Below, piece by piece: positions 22,315-28,441 of a DNA stretch of 64,000 bases (positions are counted from its first letter, which is position 1; every line of letters begins with the position of its first letter). The DNA lies in contig JAGTRI010000005.1 in NCBI GenBank assembly GCA_018397065.1, positions 1-64,000 on the forward strand, written 5' to 3'. Origin of the DNA: Candidatus Bathyarchaeota archaeon. GTDB taxonomy: Archaea; Thermoproteota; Bathyarchaeia; Bathyarchaeales; DTEX01. Both the position numbers and the translations under genes were made by a program. Under the pieces are notes generated by a model. It was not told where the DNA came from, did no database searches, and saw only the letters and a list, made by a program, of their open reading frames with translations.

Positions 22315-22512
22315 TTATTTTTAGTCCTTATATGTAAAGGACACTGTTAGGGCTAAACCGCAGCCTCATACGCCATGGCAATGTGTTTCTATCAACCTCA
22401 AATCCATAGCTTTAGACCATATCAAAGTCACCTAGGTCATAAGCAAGAATTGTAAAACGCTCAAATACCTAAAACAGATATTTTGATACCGCATTCGCAA
22501 GGTGATAAGAGG

Positions 22513-23685
22513 TTGCTGAAAAGTCAGCCAACAGCTAAGATTCACAGTTTTCAGCTGCCTAAGAAGATCCTTTTTGGCGTAAAATCTTCTGAGAACGTTG
22601 GGACTGAGGCCAAAGCTCTAGGCGGAAAAAAAGCGTTTCTCGTAACTGACAAAAACCTTGAAAAGACTGGCATACCGGCAAAAATTGAGGAGTCTTTAGT
22701 CAGCCAAGGGTTCGAAGTTAACCTTTTCGATGCAGTTGAGCCTGAACCAGTTCTGGAAATTGCTGAAAACGTTGCGTCTACGGCTAGAAGAAAAAAATAC
22801 GACATCATAGTCGGCGTAGGTGGCGGAAGCGTCCTAGACATGGCGAAAGTTGCAGCGATGTCCCTGACCAACCCTGGGCCAATGCGGAACTACGTCGGCG
22901 TTGACCTTGTTAAAAATCCAAGTGTGCCAAGCATTCTTTTGCCAACCACTGCGGGTACTGGTTCGGAAGTCACTAACGTGGCGGTTCTAACGATCACCGA
23001 GGACGAGTTAAAAACCTCAATTATAAGCCCCCATATGTTTTGTAATGTAGCCATCGTTGACCCAAGCCTAACGTACAATTTACCCCCGCGACTTACGGCG
23101 TCAACAGGGCTGGATGCTTTAAGCCACGCTTTAGAAGCGCTTATATCAGTTAACGCTAATCCAATCACGGACTCACTTGCTATCAAAGCTGTTAAGCTCA
23201 TTTTTGCCAATCTGCCTAAAGCCTACGAAAGCGGAGACCCGGAAAGCAGAGAAGGCATGTGCCTCGGCTCGTTGATTGCTGGAATGTCGTTTGGGAACGC
23301 AGGCGTATGCTTGGGCCACGCGGCGGCTTACACATTCGCTGTGTCATACAAAGTCTCGCACGGAACATCATGCGGCTTGGTTCTGCCCTACGTGTTCAGA
23401 TTCTGCGCTTCATCTATTCCTTTGAAGCTTCCAAAAATCGCAGAATCACTCGAGATTGAAACTGAAAATTTAGGGCTTGAGGAAACGGGTTTAGCCATTT
23501 CAGATGCTATTCTTGGGCTGATGGATAAGTTGCAGATGCCGAAACGGCTGCGCGACTTGAACATTCCACGAAGAGACGTGCCAAAATTAGCTGAAAAGCT
23601 TCTCACATTTAGCCGTCTGATTAAGAGAACCCCGAACCCCTTGTCTTATAATGATGCGGTTAGGCTTTTCGAGACGATGTGGTAG
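22513..23685 (+). CDS. Iron-containing alcohol dehydrogenase family protein
   Basis: Group III Fe-dependent dehydrogenase, NAD(P)-linked. GVGGGSVLDMAKV is the dinucleotide-binding motif. Candidate metal ligands are D and H in TGLDALSHALEAL, then H in GVCLGHAAAY and H in YKVSHGTSCGLVLP. The TTG at 22513 is preferred because AGGTG lies eight bases upstream; an earlier in-frame TTG at 22483 lacks a site. This gives 390 residues. The substrate is unknown; relatives act on lactaldehyde, butanol, glycerol or hydroxy acids. It precedes an HpcH-type aldolase, so an aldehyde or short-chain diol product is possible. Confidence 0.88.
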   Translation: MLKSQPTAKIHSFQLPKKILFGVKSSENVGTEAKALGGKKAFLVTDKNLEKTGIPAKIEESLVSQGFEVNLFDAVEPEPVLEIAENVASTARRKKYDIIVGVGGGSVLDMAKVAAMSLTNPGPMRNYVGVDLVKNPSVPSILLPTTAGTGSEVTNVAVLTITEDELKTSIISPHMFCNVAIVDPSLTYNLPPRLTASTGLDALSHALEALISVNANPITDSLAIKAVKLIFANLPKAYESGDPESREGMCLGSLIAGMSFGNAGVCLGHAAAYTFAVSYKVSHGTSCGLVLPYVFRFCASSIPLKLPKIAESLEIETENLGLEETGLAISDAILGLMDKLQMPKRLRDLNIPRRDVPKLAEKLLTFSRLIKRTPNPLSYNDAVRLFETMW

Positions 23686-23813
23686 CGTGCAAATGGAAAA
23701 ATATTGCCAAGTTGTAGACTATAGTGACGTTCTTGCTGTTGAACAGTCGGTCTTGATTCGAAACTATTTGTAAGTTTTATATGCTTCATTTAAATGGTAC
23801 GTTCATTGGAGCA

Positions 23814-24608
23814 GTGCCGTATTTGAAGGCGAACAGACTTAGAGAGTTAATGAGAAAAGGCGAACCGACAATTGGAACCCGAATAATGATTTCGTGGCCT
23901 GGGCTGGTTGAGATTGTTGGGAACACAGGCGTCTACGACTATGTTGAGTTTCTAAGCGAGTACGGACCTTACGACCTTTACGACTTCGACAATATTGCAA
24001 GAGCAGCTGAACTAGTAGGCATCTCGTCCATGATAAAAATCGACCAAGAACCTCGAACGTACCTGGCTGGAAGAGCCTTGGCAGCTGGCATTCAAAATGT
24101 GCTTTTCGCCGACATCCGAACAGTTCAAGACGCTGAAGAGGCAGTACGCGCAGTGAGAATGGAACCAAAAGGCCTCAGCGGGTTCAGAATGGATCGAAGA
24201 GTAGGGTACGTTGGCGCCACAGGCACAGCGGCAGACGTCGTGAAAATGTGCGACGAAGCAGTTGTCGCATTGATGATAGAAAAGAAGCAGGCGGTTGAAA
24301 ACCTAGAGGAAATCCTCTCCGTTGAAGGCATAGACATGGTACAATTTGGGCCATCTGACTATTCTGTCAGCATTGGCTTGCCAGGTGACGTGACGAACCA
24401 AAAAGTGAGAGAAGCAGAGCTAAAGACCATAAAGACTGCGTTAAAGATGAACGTGGCTCCTAGAGCTGAAATCTTTAGGCCTGAAGACGCAAAAAGGTAT
24501 ATGGAACTGGGTGTGCGAAACTTCAGCTTAGGCACAGACGTAAGCATCTTAGGCTTCTACTGGAAGAACAGCGGGGCTGAACTGAAAAAGCTTCTTTCAA
24601 AACCGTAA
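23814..24608 (+). CDS. HpcH/HpaI-family aldolase
   Basis: Class II, metal-dependent pyruvate-aldolase or citrate-lyase beta family with a TIM barrel. It has the pattern GEPTIGTRIMISWPGLVEI, DFDNI, KIDQEP, GFRMDRRVGY and the C-terminal FSLGTDVSIL. A TATA box overlaps the ATG at 23781 (GTTTTATATG, 23774-23783), which puts the transcript start near 23804; the GTG at 23814 with GGAG at 23807-23810 is therefore the better start, giving 264 residues. It splits or joins a 2-keto acid and an aldehyde; the substrate is not resolved. Confidence 0.82.
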   Translation: MPYLKANRLRELMRKGEPTIGTRIMISWPGLVEIVGNTGVYDYVEFLSEYGPYDLYDFDNIARAAELVGISSMIKIDQEPRTYLAGRALAAGIQNVLFADIRTVQDAEEAVRAVRMEPKGLSGFRMDRRVGYVGATGTAADVVKMCDEAVVALMIEKKQAVENLEEILSVEGIDMVQFGPSDYSVSIGLPGDVTNQKVREAELKTIKTALKMNVAPRAEIFRPEDAKRYMELGVRNFSLGTDVSILGFYWKNSGAELKKLLSKP

Positions 24609-24687: not shown

Positions 24688-25053
24688 ATGTCGCAGGCTC
24701 GAGTCATACGGGAAGAAACCAAAGTAGGTGACAACGTCTATTCCGTAGTACTCATCGAAGCCAAAAACGGCTACGTCGTGCTGTTAAGCGAAGGACAGGA
24801 CAGCATCGGAACCCTAGCAGTCTCAGTTCCACAAACCCCAGGAATGATTGGGCCACCATTGTCGTCCACTCTTCTAGGCGAACGAAACGTGACGCTTGCG
24901 AGGATGCTGGCGGAACGCCTCGCTAACAGCTTAAAGAAGATTGTTTTGGTCTCAGTTTTCGTTAAAACCGCAACTGAGGCAGAGGCAGGCCGCATGTTTC
25001 TAGGACTTCTTGAAAAAACCTTGAAGAAGTTGGTGAGGGAAGGTGAGTCTTAG
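24688..25053 (+). CDS. Proteasome assembly chaperone 3/4-like protein
   Basis: A 121-residue alpha/beta protein. The middle shows two beta strands, a segment SSTLLGERNVTLARMLAERL and a strand IVLVSVFVKT, followed by a C-terminal helix. The strand-(S/T)xLLG-helix layout resembles PSMG3/PSMG4 (PAC3/PAC4) of the eukaryotic 20S proteasome and their archaeal relatives. It overlaps the UbiD-family gene by 11 bases, so the two are co-transcribed. The homology is my reading of pattern and needs a profile search; the role in alpha-ring assembly is inferred from the family. Confidence 0.55.
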   Translation: MSQARVIREETKVGDNVYSVVLIEAKNGYVVLLSEGQDSIGTLAVSVPQTPGMIGPPLSSTLLGERNVTLARMLAERLANSLKKIVLVSVFVKTATEAEAGRMFLGLLEKTLKKLVREGES

Positions 25054-26389
25054 AAGTTTTCTCGAAATCTTGGAAGAGAAAAAACAGTTGGTCCACGTGA
25101 AAGAAGAGGTTTCAACAAAGCACGAAATCTCCTCAATAATGGACGCTTTTCAAGACGGCCCAGCGCTTCTTTTCGAAAACGTCAAAAGCCACTCGAAAGT
25201 TGTTGGAAACGTGTGCGGAACACGAGAAAGAATCCTCCAAGCATTAAGCGTATCAGCTGAACAACTTTACCCGAATCTTAGAGACGCGGTGTTGTCGCCT
25301 GAGACTCCCAAGGTTGTTGACGAAGGCCCAGTAAAAGAAGTCGTCGAACCGCCTAGGTTGTCAAAGATTCCCGTGCTAACACATTTCGAAAAAGACGCTG
25401 GACCCTACATAACCTCAGGCGTCGTGTCAGCCCAAAGCCCCGATGGAAAAGTTGAAAACGTCTCAATCCACAGGCTTCAGGTCTTGAACGACAAGCAGCT
25501 TGCCATCCGTTTGGTTCCTAGACACCTTTACAGGCTTTGGACCATGGCTAAAGAAAAGGGTAAAGACTTAGATGTGGCAATTTCAATTGGCGTTCACCCA
25601 GCTGTGCTATTAGCCGCGGCTTGTTCACCGCCTTTTGGAGTAAGCGAATTCGGAATTGCGAACAGGCTGCTATGCGGCTGTCTAAGATTGGTTAGGTGCG
25701 AAAAAGTTGACGCTTACGCAGTCGCTGAGGCTGAACTGGTTCTCGAAGGCAAAATCTCAGTAGCCAAAGAGGTTGATGAGGGACCATTTGTCGACATAAC
25801 GGGCACATACGACGTTCAGAGAAGCCAGCCTGTCGTAGATGTAGTTAGCGTCATGCATCGAAAAGACTACGTTTACCAGGCACTATTGCCCGGAGGCTCA
25901 GAGCACAGGATACTTATGGGACTGCCACGTGAAGCAGCCATTTACGACGCGGTCTCAAACGTCGTCCCAAATGTTAAGGCAGTGAACCTTACGCCAAGCG
26001 GTTGCGGATGGCTGCACGCTGTAATCTCGATTGAAAAACAGACTGATGGAGACGCAAAAAACGCTTTGTTAGCCGCGTTTGCTGGGCATCCAAGCCTTAA
26101 GCACGCTGTGGTAGTAGACTCCGACATCGACGTCTACAACCCTGAACAGGTGGAATGGGCAGTTGCCCTCCGATTCCAAGCAGACGAGGACTTGGTTGTG
26201 ATACCAAAAACGCGAGGATCAACCCTAGACCCGTCAGCTGACCAAGAAAGCGGGTTAACCTCAAAAATGGGCATCGACGCAACGCGACCCCTACGGGTGC
26301 CTAAAGAAAAATTTGAAAAGGCAAAGATACCGAAAACAGGTGCCAGCGAAAAAATTATTACAAAAATTCGGCGAGAACTGTTCGAGTAA
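25043..26389 (+). CDS. UbiD-family decarboxylase, probable trans-anhydromevalonate-5-phosphate decarboxylase
   Basis: Prenylated-FMN-dependent decarboxylase of the UbiD family, 448 residues, with GPALLFENVK, the VENVSIHRLQ segment, the FGVSEFGIANRL region and the C-terminal DPSADQESGLTSKMGIDAT block. In archaea one UbiD group decarboxylates trans-anhydromevalonate 5-phosphate to isopentenyl phosphate. Here the gene lies tail-to-tail (7-base gap) with both aconitase X subunits, which make that substrate, so this role is much more likely than ubiquinone or aromatic-acid decarboxylation. Start is GTG with GAGGGAAGG upstream. No UbiX (flavin prenyltransferase) gene is in the window. Confidence 0.85.
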   Translation: MSLRSFLEILEEKKQLVHVKEEVSTKHEISSIMDAFQDGPALLFENVKSHSKVVGNVCGTRERILQALSVSAEQLYPNLRDAVLSPETPKVVDEGPVKEVVEPPRLSKIPVLTHFEKDAGPYITSGVVSAQSPDGKVENVSIHRLQVLNDKQLAIRLVPRHLYRLWTMAKEKGKDLDVAISIGVHPAVLLAAACSPPFGVSEFGIANRLLCGCLRLVRCEKVDAYAVAEAELVLEGKISVAKEVDEGPFVDITGTYDVQRSQPVVDVVSVMHRKDYVYQALLPGGSEHRILMGLPREAAIYDAVSNVVPNVKAVNLTPSGCGWLHAVISIEKQTDGDAKNALLAAFAGHPSLKHAVVVDSDIDVYNPEQVEWAVALRFQADEDLVVIPKTRGSTLDPSADQESGLTSKMGIDATRPLRVPKEKFEKAKIPKTGASEKIITKIRRELFE

Positions 26390-26396
26390 TGCCTTT

Positions 26397-27575
26397 CTAT
26401 TTGTGGCAAGCTGTTTCGACGCATTGTTTTAACGTTGCTAATCTGACCTTGACCTTGTTCATGGTTGGCGCGTAGAACGCGGTTTTCGCAGAGTTCGTCA
26501 TCAAGGTGTCGACGCCGAGTTCCTTCAGCCACGTTACAACGGCGCATATGTCAGAAACAACCTTTCCGCCAGCTGCCTCAATAGTTTGAATGTGTCGTGC
26601 AGCCTTTGCCTTAACGTGGCGGGACGAGCAAACCCAGAACATAACATTTTCTTTAACCTTTCTTCCTTGAACGAGCCTCGCGACGTTTCTAACTTCGTTT
26701 AATGAGCAGTGTGGGCATCCGACAAAAACCATGTCTGGTTCCTCGCTGCATGTGGAAAGGTCTTCAAAAGCCTTTTTCAAGATTTGTCCATCAACCGCCA
26801 GTCTTTCAAGGTTCTCTGCTTTTTTTGGGCAACGGCTACAGGGATAGAAGACTGACGTCATTCCAGACGAGGCTAAGGCTGCGCTTAGCTGCTTTAAATC
26901 TGCCTCTTTTGGGTAACGTAGGCCTTCGATCACTGGTACTTTGTCCATTAAGTTTTTGCCTAAGAAGATTCCCAGCGCCCCATACCACACTTCGTTTTTC
27001 AGGTCTGTCTCAACCTTAACTAGGACGTTGGGCTCGCGGTTTTCAGGTTTATGCAGCCCGTGGTTTGGGGTTTTCCCGATCAGAGCGGATGCGAGGGCGC
27101 TTGGTCCTCCTTCACGGTTTGTCCATGAGCCTAAGACTGAGTTTGCGTAGACTACGGCTGATGATTCTGCCCACGCTAAGTGGCTGCCTTGTTTTGGCTT
27201 ACTTGCATAGTAAGGAGTGCATGTTAAAACGGGTTTTAGGCCCATGTTCTTGTAGAGTTCAACAATTTTTTCTTGTTTTTCCTTGACTGTTTCAGGCACA
27301 GCAGACCGCATTATTCCCTCGTAGTCGAGTCCTGAAGGGTTAACCGTTGAAGCAACCTTCGCTTTTGCTCCTGTCTCAGCTAAAGATTCGAGGAACTCGA
27401 TGGGAGCGTCGCCAAGAGTTTTGTATGAGACTCCTGAAACGTGAGCTGACTCGATTGGAATCAGTTTTTCCGCATCGAAAAGGTCTCCAAGCTTAACCAG
27501 TATCTTCATCGCGGTCTGGTATGCCCAGCCTTGTTCTCCCTCGTAGATTTTTTCTTCTTCAGCAGTCAAGTGCAA
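26397..27575 (-). CDS. Aconitase X catalytic subunit, probable phosphomevalonate dehydratase large subunit
   Basis: Aconitase-superfamily enzyme (DUF521 type), 392 residues, predicted to dehydrate mevalonate 5-phosphate to trans-anhydromevalonate 5-phosphate with an FeS cluster. It begins MHLTAEEEKIYEGEQGWAYQ, and has ESAHVSGVSYKTLGDAP, the CTPYY segment, NSVLGSWTNREGGPSALASA and VFVGCPHCSLNE; several conserved cysteines (CTPYY, GCPHC, WVCSSRHV) are available for cluster binding. It overlaps the small subunit gene by 10 bases. Hydroxyproline epimerase-type aconitase X is the alternative, but pairing with a UbiD-family gene favours the mevalonate role. Confidence 0.88.
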   Translation of the reverse strand: MHLTAEEEKIYEGEQGWAYQTAMKILVKLGDLFDAEKLIPIESAHVSGVSYKTLGDAPIEFLESLAETGAKAKVASTVNPSGLDYEGIMRSAVPETVKEKQEKIVELYKNMGLKPVLTCTPYYASKPKQGSHLAWAESSAVVYANSVLGSWTNREGGPSALASALIGKTPNHGLHKPENREPNVLVKVETDLKNEVWYGALGIFLGKNLMDKVPVIEGLRYPKEADLKQLSAALASSGMTSVFYPCSRCPKKAENLERLAVDGQILKKAFEDLSTCSEEPDMVFVGCPHCSLNEVRNVARLVQGRKVKENVMFWVCSSRHVKAKAARHIQTIEAAGGKVVSDICAVVTWLKELGVDTLMTNSAKTAFYAPTMNKVKVRLATLKQCVETACHK

Positions 27576-27982
27576 GCTTTTTTCCTCTCCAAGATTTTTA
27601 CTGTGCCTTTTCCGCCGTCAACCTCAACGGTGTCGCCTGTTCTTATCTGGGAAATATCGATTTTGTCAACCATGGGAACGTCTGCGATGACTGCTCCAAC
27701 GACTACAACTGGGTCAGCTGTTTCGTTCACAATCGCCTTTGGACCCACGTTCTTTTTTGCAAGCGAGTAAAGAACGTAGCTGCCAACAGTTGACCCGTGC
27801 CCGTGAGGAAAACAAAAAACAACATCTTTGATGCTTTTCCCCAAAAGATCGTGGTTTTTCTCGGTCACCAAGCCGGTCTCGGGATCCACGCCGCCTAGAA
27901 AACTTAGCGGTTTCTTGGATACCAAAGCTGTACCAGATTTAATGCCTGAGACCAGCGGGCGTCCCTTAAGTTCAAGATCCAT
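27566..27982 (-). CDS. Aconitase X swivel domain, probable phosphomevalonate dehydratase small subunit
   Basis: Small partner of the aconitase X large subunit (DUF126 type). From the ATG at 27982 it is 138 residues, starting MDLELKGRPLVSGIKSGTAL, with the GGVDPETGLV and FPHGHGSTVGSYVLY motifs typical of the family. The frame is open to 28042, but a TATA box at 28005-28013 is 27 bases before the ATG at 27982, giving a leaderless transcript and fixing the start there. The archaeal two-subunit form is seen, not the fused bacterial form. Confidence 0.88.
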   Translation of the reverse strand: MDLELKGRPLVSGIKSGTALVSKKPLSFLGGVDPETGLVTEKNHDLLGKSIKDVVFCFPHGHGSTVGSYVLYSLAKKNVGPKAIVNETADPVVVVGAVIADVPMVDKIDISQIRTGDTVEVDGGKGTVKILERKKACT

Positions 27983-28013: not shown

Positions 28014-28048
28014 TGAGAGCCAATGTTTCTTTTTTTGGGCAAAACGTT

Positions 28049-28441
28049 TTACTTATACTTAGCGTAAGTTTCTTCTTGCCTTTTTGAAGCCACATCAAGC
28101 AGAGCCTTGTAGTACTCTCCTGTTTCAATTTTTGTGCAGATGTTTCCTAAGGCTTCATGGACGTTTCGGAAGTACTCCTTGTCTGAGGCTTCAAGCCTTC
28201 CTTTTCGAATCATTGCTACGCGGTCTTGAATTCCCAGTCCTGCTTCTCTAAGCGAAACATAAAGAACGCGGTGTTCAACTCTAATAAGCTCTGGACATGT
28301 TTCGTTAGCCAGTTCAACGAGGTCTTCGCCTACTGCCTGAATGTGCGGCATGTCCCAAGACAACATGTAAACTTCGTTTCTTTTGAGGATTTCTCTTAAT
28401 CGAGTCTGAATAATGTTAAGTATCGGCAGAAACCTCTCCAT
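28049..28441 (-). CDS. Conserved-looking hypothetical protein
   Basis: A 130-residue, mostly helical, charged protein with no membrane segment and no motif I recognise; a WDMPHIQ segment and a stretch ELIRVEHRVLYVSL are the most distinctive parts. It is upstream of the aconitase X pair on the same strand, but those genes have their own promoter, so no functional link follows. It is back-to-back with the ABC exporter genes. Codon use and length look genuine. Confidence 0.6.
   Translation of the reverse strand: MERFLPILNIIQTRLREILKRNEVYMLSWDMPHIQAVGEDLVELANETCPELIRVEHRVLYVSLREAGLGIQDRVAMIRKGRLEASDKEYFRNVHEALGNICTKIETGEYYKALLDVASKRQEETYAKYK

Follow-up and report, generated by a model that had tools for sequence, protein, structure and literature searches.

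A conserved PAC4/LpdD-fold gene linked to anhydromevalonate phosphate decarboxylase in Bathyarchaeota and other archaea, a candidate prenylated FMN chaperone

The window analysed here is a 64,000 nt stretch of the Candidatus Bathyarchaeota archaeon contig JAGTRI010000005.1 (assembly GCA_018397065.1). Between nt 24688 and 27982 it carries genes for a UbiD-family decarboxylase and a two-subunit aconitase X (AcnX), and directly in front of the decarboxylase gene lies a small gene whose product has the predicted fold of the proteasome assembly chaperones PAC3/PAC4 and of LpdD. The explanation that appears probable for the locus as a whole is that AcnX and UbiD are the phosphomevalonate dehydratase (PMDh) and anhydromevalonate phosphate decarboxylase (AMPD) of isoprenoid synthesis, and that the small protein serves AMPD as a chaperone for its cofactor, prenylated flavin mononucleotide (prFMN). 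The mevalonate module has been textbook knowledge for archaea since 2018 and, as a pathway, the PMDh and AMPD genes are already known. Two elements are new, both of them bioinformatic: a conserved partner of AMPD with the PAC4/LpdD fold, and the gap left by UbiX, the flavin prenyltransferase. The partner gene, coupled to UbiD, was absent from the first-pass annotation of the window.

The source metagenome-assembled genome (MAG) comprises 1.20 Mb in 46 contigs and is 71.6% complete; the window is its contig C42. The closest named records are MAGs of Candidatus Bathyarchaeota, with a UbiD of 89% identity in isolate QZM_B1_bin_12_1.

A PAC4/LpdD-fold gene accompanies archaeal UbiD

The gene at nt 24688–25053 (+) encodes a protein of 121 aa, and its end overlaps the start of the UbiD gene (nt 25043–26389, +; 448 aa, GTG start) by 11 nt. 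The product matches the Pfam family PAC4 with 32.1 bits against a cut-off of 31, and all 17 homologues that were tested also match this family (E ≤ 0.1). An AlphaFold2 model of the protein (pLDDT 89.4, pTM 0.83) retrieved 18 PDB matches at probability 1.0 by Foldseek, all of them PAC3, PAC4, Pba3-Pba4 or LpdD. The match to LpdD (8pzo) had an E value of 2.3e-5 and a TM score of 0.68 at probability 1.0, and the PAC4-like protein of a Baldrarchaeota gave an identical match set.

A homologue of this gene is found directly upstream of the window-type UbiD in 17 of 17 relatives with visible upstream DNA, and it is still beside UbiD in the five among them (G021, G023, G027, G029 and G030) in which UbiD is distant from AcnX. 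The UbiDs that are linked to the gene form one clade, and type-A UbiDs are never linked to it. Among named archaeal UbiD loci with visible upstream DNA, the gene is present at 46 of 77, a count that shares genomes with that of the relatives and is not independent of it. It stands immediately before UbiD at 43 of these 46 loci, and in 22 of those cases the two genes overlap by 4 nt (ATGA). At 26 of the 46, no AcnX is seen in the stretch examined. The remaining three loci, from two Baldrarchaeota and one member of the Odinarchaeia (Asgard), have the order PAC4-like gene, UbiX, UbiD and AcnX large. The relative that was searched in full (G002) has a single member of the PAC4-like family, located at UbiD. 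A tblastn search of the protein against plasmids gave no match.

Among known proteins of the PAC3/PAC4 fold, LpdD alone is tied to UbiD. It binds prFMN in the reduced state only, activates apo-UbiD and has the fold of Pba3/4, while its metal binding is not essential (PMC10865409). Among the papers searched, UbiD and a proteasome assembly chaperone were found together only in that one. The window protein has in common with LpdD of Lactobacillus plantarum (8PO5, 8PZO) the predicted fold, a size of about 120 aa and a genetic link to UbiD-type decarboxylases, to which a link to UbiX is added in Asgard archaea. The decarboxylases served are different, however, that of LpdD being gallate decarboxylase and that of the window protein the AMPD of lipid synthesis.

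Its predicted fold, and its linkage to UbiD and to the UbiX of Asgard archaea, make it reasonably likely that the PAC4/LpdD-fold protein acts in archaea as a prFMN chaperone of AMPD. Translated immediately ahead of AMPD, probably in a coupled manner, it would most likely bind reduced prFMN and pass it on to apo-AMPD.

AcnX and UbiD correspond to PMDh and AMPD

The large subunit of AcnX (nt 26397–27575, −; 392 aa, TTG start) and the small or swivel subunit (nt 27566–27982, −; 138 aa) are encoded by two adjacent, overlapping genes (PF04412 and PF01989). The start of the small-subunit gene was set at the ATG at nt 27982; the mechanical open reading frame (ORF) extends to nt 28042. The UbiD and AcnX large genes lie tail-to-tail with their stop codons 7 bases apart (nt 26390–26396), an arrangement reported by the first-pass annotation and confirmed here by coordinates and by Pfam domains with scores far above their cut-offs (UbiD 207 bits, UbiD_N 75.5, UbiD_C 137, AcnX 469.5 and AcnX swivel 116.1). 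Three enzymes had been counted at this point; three genes are indeed present, but the AcnX large and small proteins form one enzyme, giving two in all. The convergent arrangement recurs across the GTDB family of the source (e.g., G001, G002, G003 and G016) and extends to another family (G028), and this recurrence excludes chance or an assembly artefact.

Judging from homologues of proven activity, the window genes almost certainly encode PMDh and AMPD. The best PDB match of AcnX is the PMDh of Thermococcus kodakarensis (7cnr), at 306 bits for the large and 142 bits for the small subunit, compared with 178 bits between the large subunit and the type I hydroxyproline dehydratase 7d2r. In a maximum-likelihood tree computed with a mixture model, the window-type AcnX sequences form one clade (25 rows, support 100/100) within a group that holds both the T. 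kodakarensis and the Aeropyrum pernix PMDh, and type I AcnX falls outside it. These results agree with the earlier assignment of AcnX to PMDh and not to the hydroxyproline type. An earlier FastTree reconstruction placed type I beside long-branched crenarchaeal rows, which the mixture-model tree did not.

The A. pernix (Ape_2087.1/Ape_2089) and T. kodakarensis (7CNR/7CNS) enzymes are type IIb AcnX with two subunits and three cluster cysteines, as in the window. The A. pernix K1 reference locus (L182) was fixed with the two published Ape_2089 primers (PMC10040528), whose gene-specific portions match it exactly, and the subunits encoded there show 38.9% and 42.1% identity to those of the window. 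Cys122, Cys297 and Cys356 hold the [4Fe-4S] cluster in A. pernix PMDh (PMC10040528); the aligned window residues are Cys119, Cys287 and Cys344, in the motifs TCTPYY, GCPHC and DIC. Mevalonate 5-phosphate (MVA5P) is contacted in T. kodakarensis PMDh by Gly48, Val49, Ser50, Asn53, Asn79, Glu129, Ser130 and Lys361 of the large subunit and by Thr63 of the small subunit (PMC8184944). All of these are retained in the window alignment save Asn53, which is replaced by Thr, and the proven A. pernix PMDh likewise has Thr at this position (T. kodakarensis numbering). The motifs WAESSA (Ser-Ser) and TNSAK (Lys) are shared with both enzymes, and so is the substrate loop GSTVGSYV of the small subunit. One difference is an extra cysteine after the second cluster cysteine, most of the window lineage having GCPHC where T. 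kodakarensis and A. pernix have GCPHA. Besides this residue (Cys290), the window large subunit has further cysteines near the cluster region in a CSRC motif (Cys246 and Cys249).

A reading of the window AcnX as a divergent paralogue with a different function was considered and rejected. Near-complete genomes such as G002 hold only the window type above the cut-off, and the idea is weakened further because Thr53, odd by comparison with T. kodakarensis, is found in A. pernix too. A second type of AcnX, with about 41% identity, is present in some sister families. Additional AcnX copies branching outside the PMDh group were seen at L034 (G012), L225 (G027) and L193 (G060), and the copy at L034 is without the GVSY and TCTPYY motifs.

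The window UbiD is 46.5% identical to A. pernix AMPD over 417 residues. In the UbiD tree, the window clade (100/100) joins the A. pernix AMPD clade (99/94), a grouping that upholds the first-pass identification of this gene, and the archaeal sequences form a single clade (99/89) separate from HmfF, AnInD and AroY. Residue R144 aligns with the catalytic R155 of AnInD, and E229 and E235 with the Asp and Glu of its E(D)-R-E network; the catalytic Arg and the Glu pair are common to the window and A. pernix proteins. The A. pernix UbiD used here (L214) is taken to be the AMPD that was assayed, on the strength of its position, some nine gene numbers ahead of Ape_2087.1, and of the record number in PMC8184944.

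Pathway context

In the proposed route, PMDh, a [4Fe-4S] dehydratase made up of the AcnX large and small subunits, would convert mevalonate 5-phosphate to trans-anhydromevalonate phosphate. This would be turned into isopentenyl phosphate by AMPD (UbiD) with prFMN, and isopentenyl phosphate kinase (IPK), encoded elsewhere, would then form isopentenyl diphosphate (IPP).

Sister families of the order have the genes for mevalonate kinase (MVK) and IPK on either side of the module, in the order MVK-UbiD-AcnXL-AcnXS-IPK and in one direction, and this clustering argues for a functional tie among them. Five such full clusters in sister Bathyarchaeota families (L219, L220, L221, L222 and L228) carry no PAC4-like gene. 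The cluster is split in the window's own family: UbiD converges with AcnX, and a separate site holds MVK next to IPK (G002, 98% complete). IPK scored above the cut-off in 36 of 41 relatives, and diphosphomevalonate decarboxylase in only one of the 41.

HMG-CoA reductase is present in the source MAG. MVK and IPK were not found there, and at 71.6% completeness their absence is uninformative, so that the completeness of the pathway rests on the relatives. The GHMP kinases of the MAG are homoserine and shikimate kinases only. No full classical pathway was found, in agreement with the first-pass annotation, and its claim that isoprenoid lipids are made by the archaeal branch holds for the lineage, for which synthesis by the archaeal modified mevalonate route is well supported; the source MAG alone is too incomplete. 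A genus-level loss of IPK, considered for its absence from G000 (the source MAG) and G001, was rejected since G002 of the same family has adjacent MVK and IPK genes. A contig edge truncates MVK in the sister species G001, and the site at which IPK would be expected is therefore missing from the assembly.

The HMG-CoA reductase of the MAG (G000:C1:119867-120964; L007) scores 510 bits against TIGR00532, the model of the ‘degradative’ class II, and fits the NADPH class far less well. Its sequence suggests a bacterial-type HMG-CoA reductase that may feed the archaeal pathway.

The UbiX gap

The first-pass annotation noted that no flavin prenyltransferase gene was nearby, and proposed that the genome be searched for IPK and UbiX. 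No UbiX was found near the locus or anywhere in the source MAG, itself incomplete, a point that also enters the comparison with the A. pernix AMPD system. The set of 81 relatives includes 53 near-complete genomes, 50 of which have UbiD. Matches to the Flavoprotein family (PF02441) at the level of UbiX occur in 12 of these 50 genomes of the order, leaving 38 without a recognisable UbiX, and TIGR00421 was concordant for the first 41 genomes. Eight members of the window's family that are 92–99% complete (G002, G004, G006, G008, G010, G012, G014 and G017) have UbiD but no PF02441 match at all. In G002 (1.42 Mb, 0.8% N), a six-frame search with a UbiX profile of the relatives at maximum sensitivity gave a best E value of 1. 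The same eight genomes are also without the usual domain of CoaC (phosphopantothenoylcysteine decarboxylase).

Flavoprotein-family proteins of about 200–250 aa in the UbiX-less genomes were examined as possible UbiX enzymes and rejected, those that could be typed being AfpA and MJ0208-type dihydromethanopterin reductases. The PAC4-like gene was likewise rejected as a replacement for UbiX, because the two folds are unrelated and the two genes also occur side by side. An unrecognised flavin prenyltransferase, a supply of cofactor from neighbours, and a gene systematically lost in binning are candidate explanations of the gap. For an essential pathway, the lack of UbiX in the majority of near-complete genomes across the order suggests either that a flavin prenyltransferase is missing or that the cofactor is shared.

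The role of the PAC4/LpdD-fold protein and its alternatives

Several observations weigh against a prFMN chaperone. In sequence-profile searches the sole significant solved match of the window protein was human PAC4 (E 1.6e-6, improving to 8.2e-9 when Asgard members were added), and no profile search reached LpdD, so that in sequence the protein is nearer human PAC4. It contains no histidine, hence the Mn site of LpdD (H35-H61-D63) is not retained. Lacking both a sequence match and the metal-binding histidines, it does not qualify as an orthologue of LpdD. Many of the archaea that bear the gene have no recognisable UbiX. Moreover, AMPD occurs without a PAC4-like protein in type-A Bathyarchaeota, Thermococcus, Methanomethylicota and A. 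pernix, whose AMPD gene has no PAC4/LpdD-fold gene upstream, whereas that of the window is preceded and overlapped by one; the protein is thus not required by every AMPD.

One alternative is that the product of nt 24688–25053 is an archaeal proteasome-assembly chaperone, orthologous to PAC4, which merely shares an operon with UbiD, the enzymes still being PMDh and AMPD. The Pfam match to PAC4 is above the cut-off, human PAC4 is both the closest solved sequence and first in rank by Foldseek, and the fold is shared with eukaryotic PAC4 (PSMG4) and with yeast Pba3-Pba4. However, eukaryotic PAC4 acts on the proteasome, whereas the window-type gene sits with UbiD or UbiX and no PAC3-like partner was seen beside it. 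The gene tracks UbiD, being directly upstream of it at 43 of the 46 named loci and upstream of UbiX-UbiD at the other three; no proteasome gene was seen among the typed neighbours, and the only family member of the fully searched genome is at UbiD. Archaeal proteasome core particles, in addition, assemble without help (PMC13022661). A chaperone of the proteasome is, on balance, unlikely. A subunit of AMPD with a structural or regulatory function and no part in cofactor handling, like VdcD in VdcCD, would be in keeping with the one-to-one linkage and the translational overlap with UbiD, and VdcD is an integral subunit of this kind (PMC10865409). The fold, on the other hand, is that of LpdD, a binder of reduced prFMN (prFMNH2) (PMC10865409), and in the three Asgard genomes the gene adjoins UbiX and not UbiD, so a subunit of this type seems rather improbable.

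It is very hard to reconcile the data with AcnX and UbiD serving another pathway, such as hydroxyproline or aromatic-acid metabolism, and we give this hardly any credence. The closest solved structure to the window UbiD is 6h6v (350 bits), in our reading the furan-dicarboxylate decarboxylase HmfF, and the failure to find MVK and IPK in the source MAG could be read in the same direction. Yet the archaeal UbiD clade that includes A. pernix AMPD stands apart from HmfF, AnInD and AroY, the tree and the best structural match of AcnX both indicate PMDh, in sister families these genes lie in one cluster with MVK and IPK, and the window-type AcnX is the only one above the cut-off in near-complete relatives such as G002.

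The prFMN chaperone, as the preferred role of the PAC4/LpdD-fold protein, would supply a conserved helper gene for the AMPD step, the least understood of the pathway. How strict anaerobes load and mature prFMN has been described as unclear (PMC13040415). The candidates belong to one family, which gene order allows to be predicted across dozens of archaeal genomes and which is linked with UbiX in the Asgard group, making the proposal directly testable. Such a protein could permit the production of active AMPD for low-ATP isoprenoid synthesis, and a non-proteasomal origin of the PAC3/PAC4 fold becomes possible. A more far-reaching scenario, which we regard as doubtful, would make the protein an ancient chaperone for prFMN in the archaeal mevalonate pathway, encoded in Asgard archaea together with UbiX and AMPD. 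Eukaryotic PAC3/PAC4 would have been recruited from it upon loss of the archaeal-type pathway in eukaryotes, and UbiX-less Bathyarchaeota would obtain prFMN from neighbours or through a flavin prenyltransferase that escapes recognition.

Neighbouring genes

Upstream of the PAC4-like gene, and in the same direction, nt 22483–24608 (+) encode an iron-containing alcohol dehydrogenase and an HpcH/HpaI-family aldolase. Genes for a CLP1-type kinase and an HhH-GPD glycosylase are found upstream in both the window and L241. On the other side, 5′ of the AcnX small gene, lies an ORF of 130 aa (nt 28049–28441, −) with no significant Pfam match, and homologues of it occupy the equivalent place in G001 (92%), G009 (69%) and G011 (61%).

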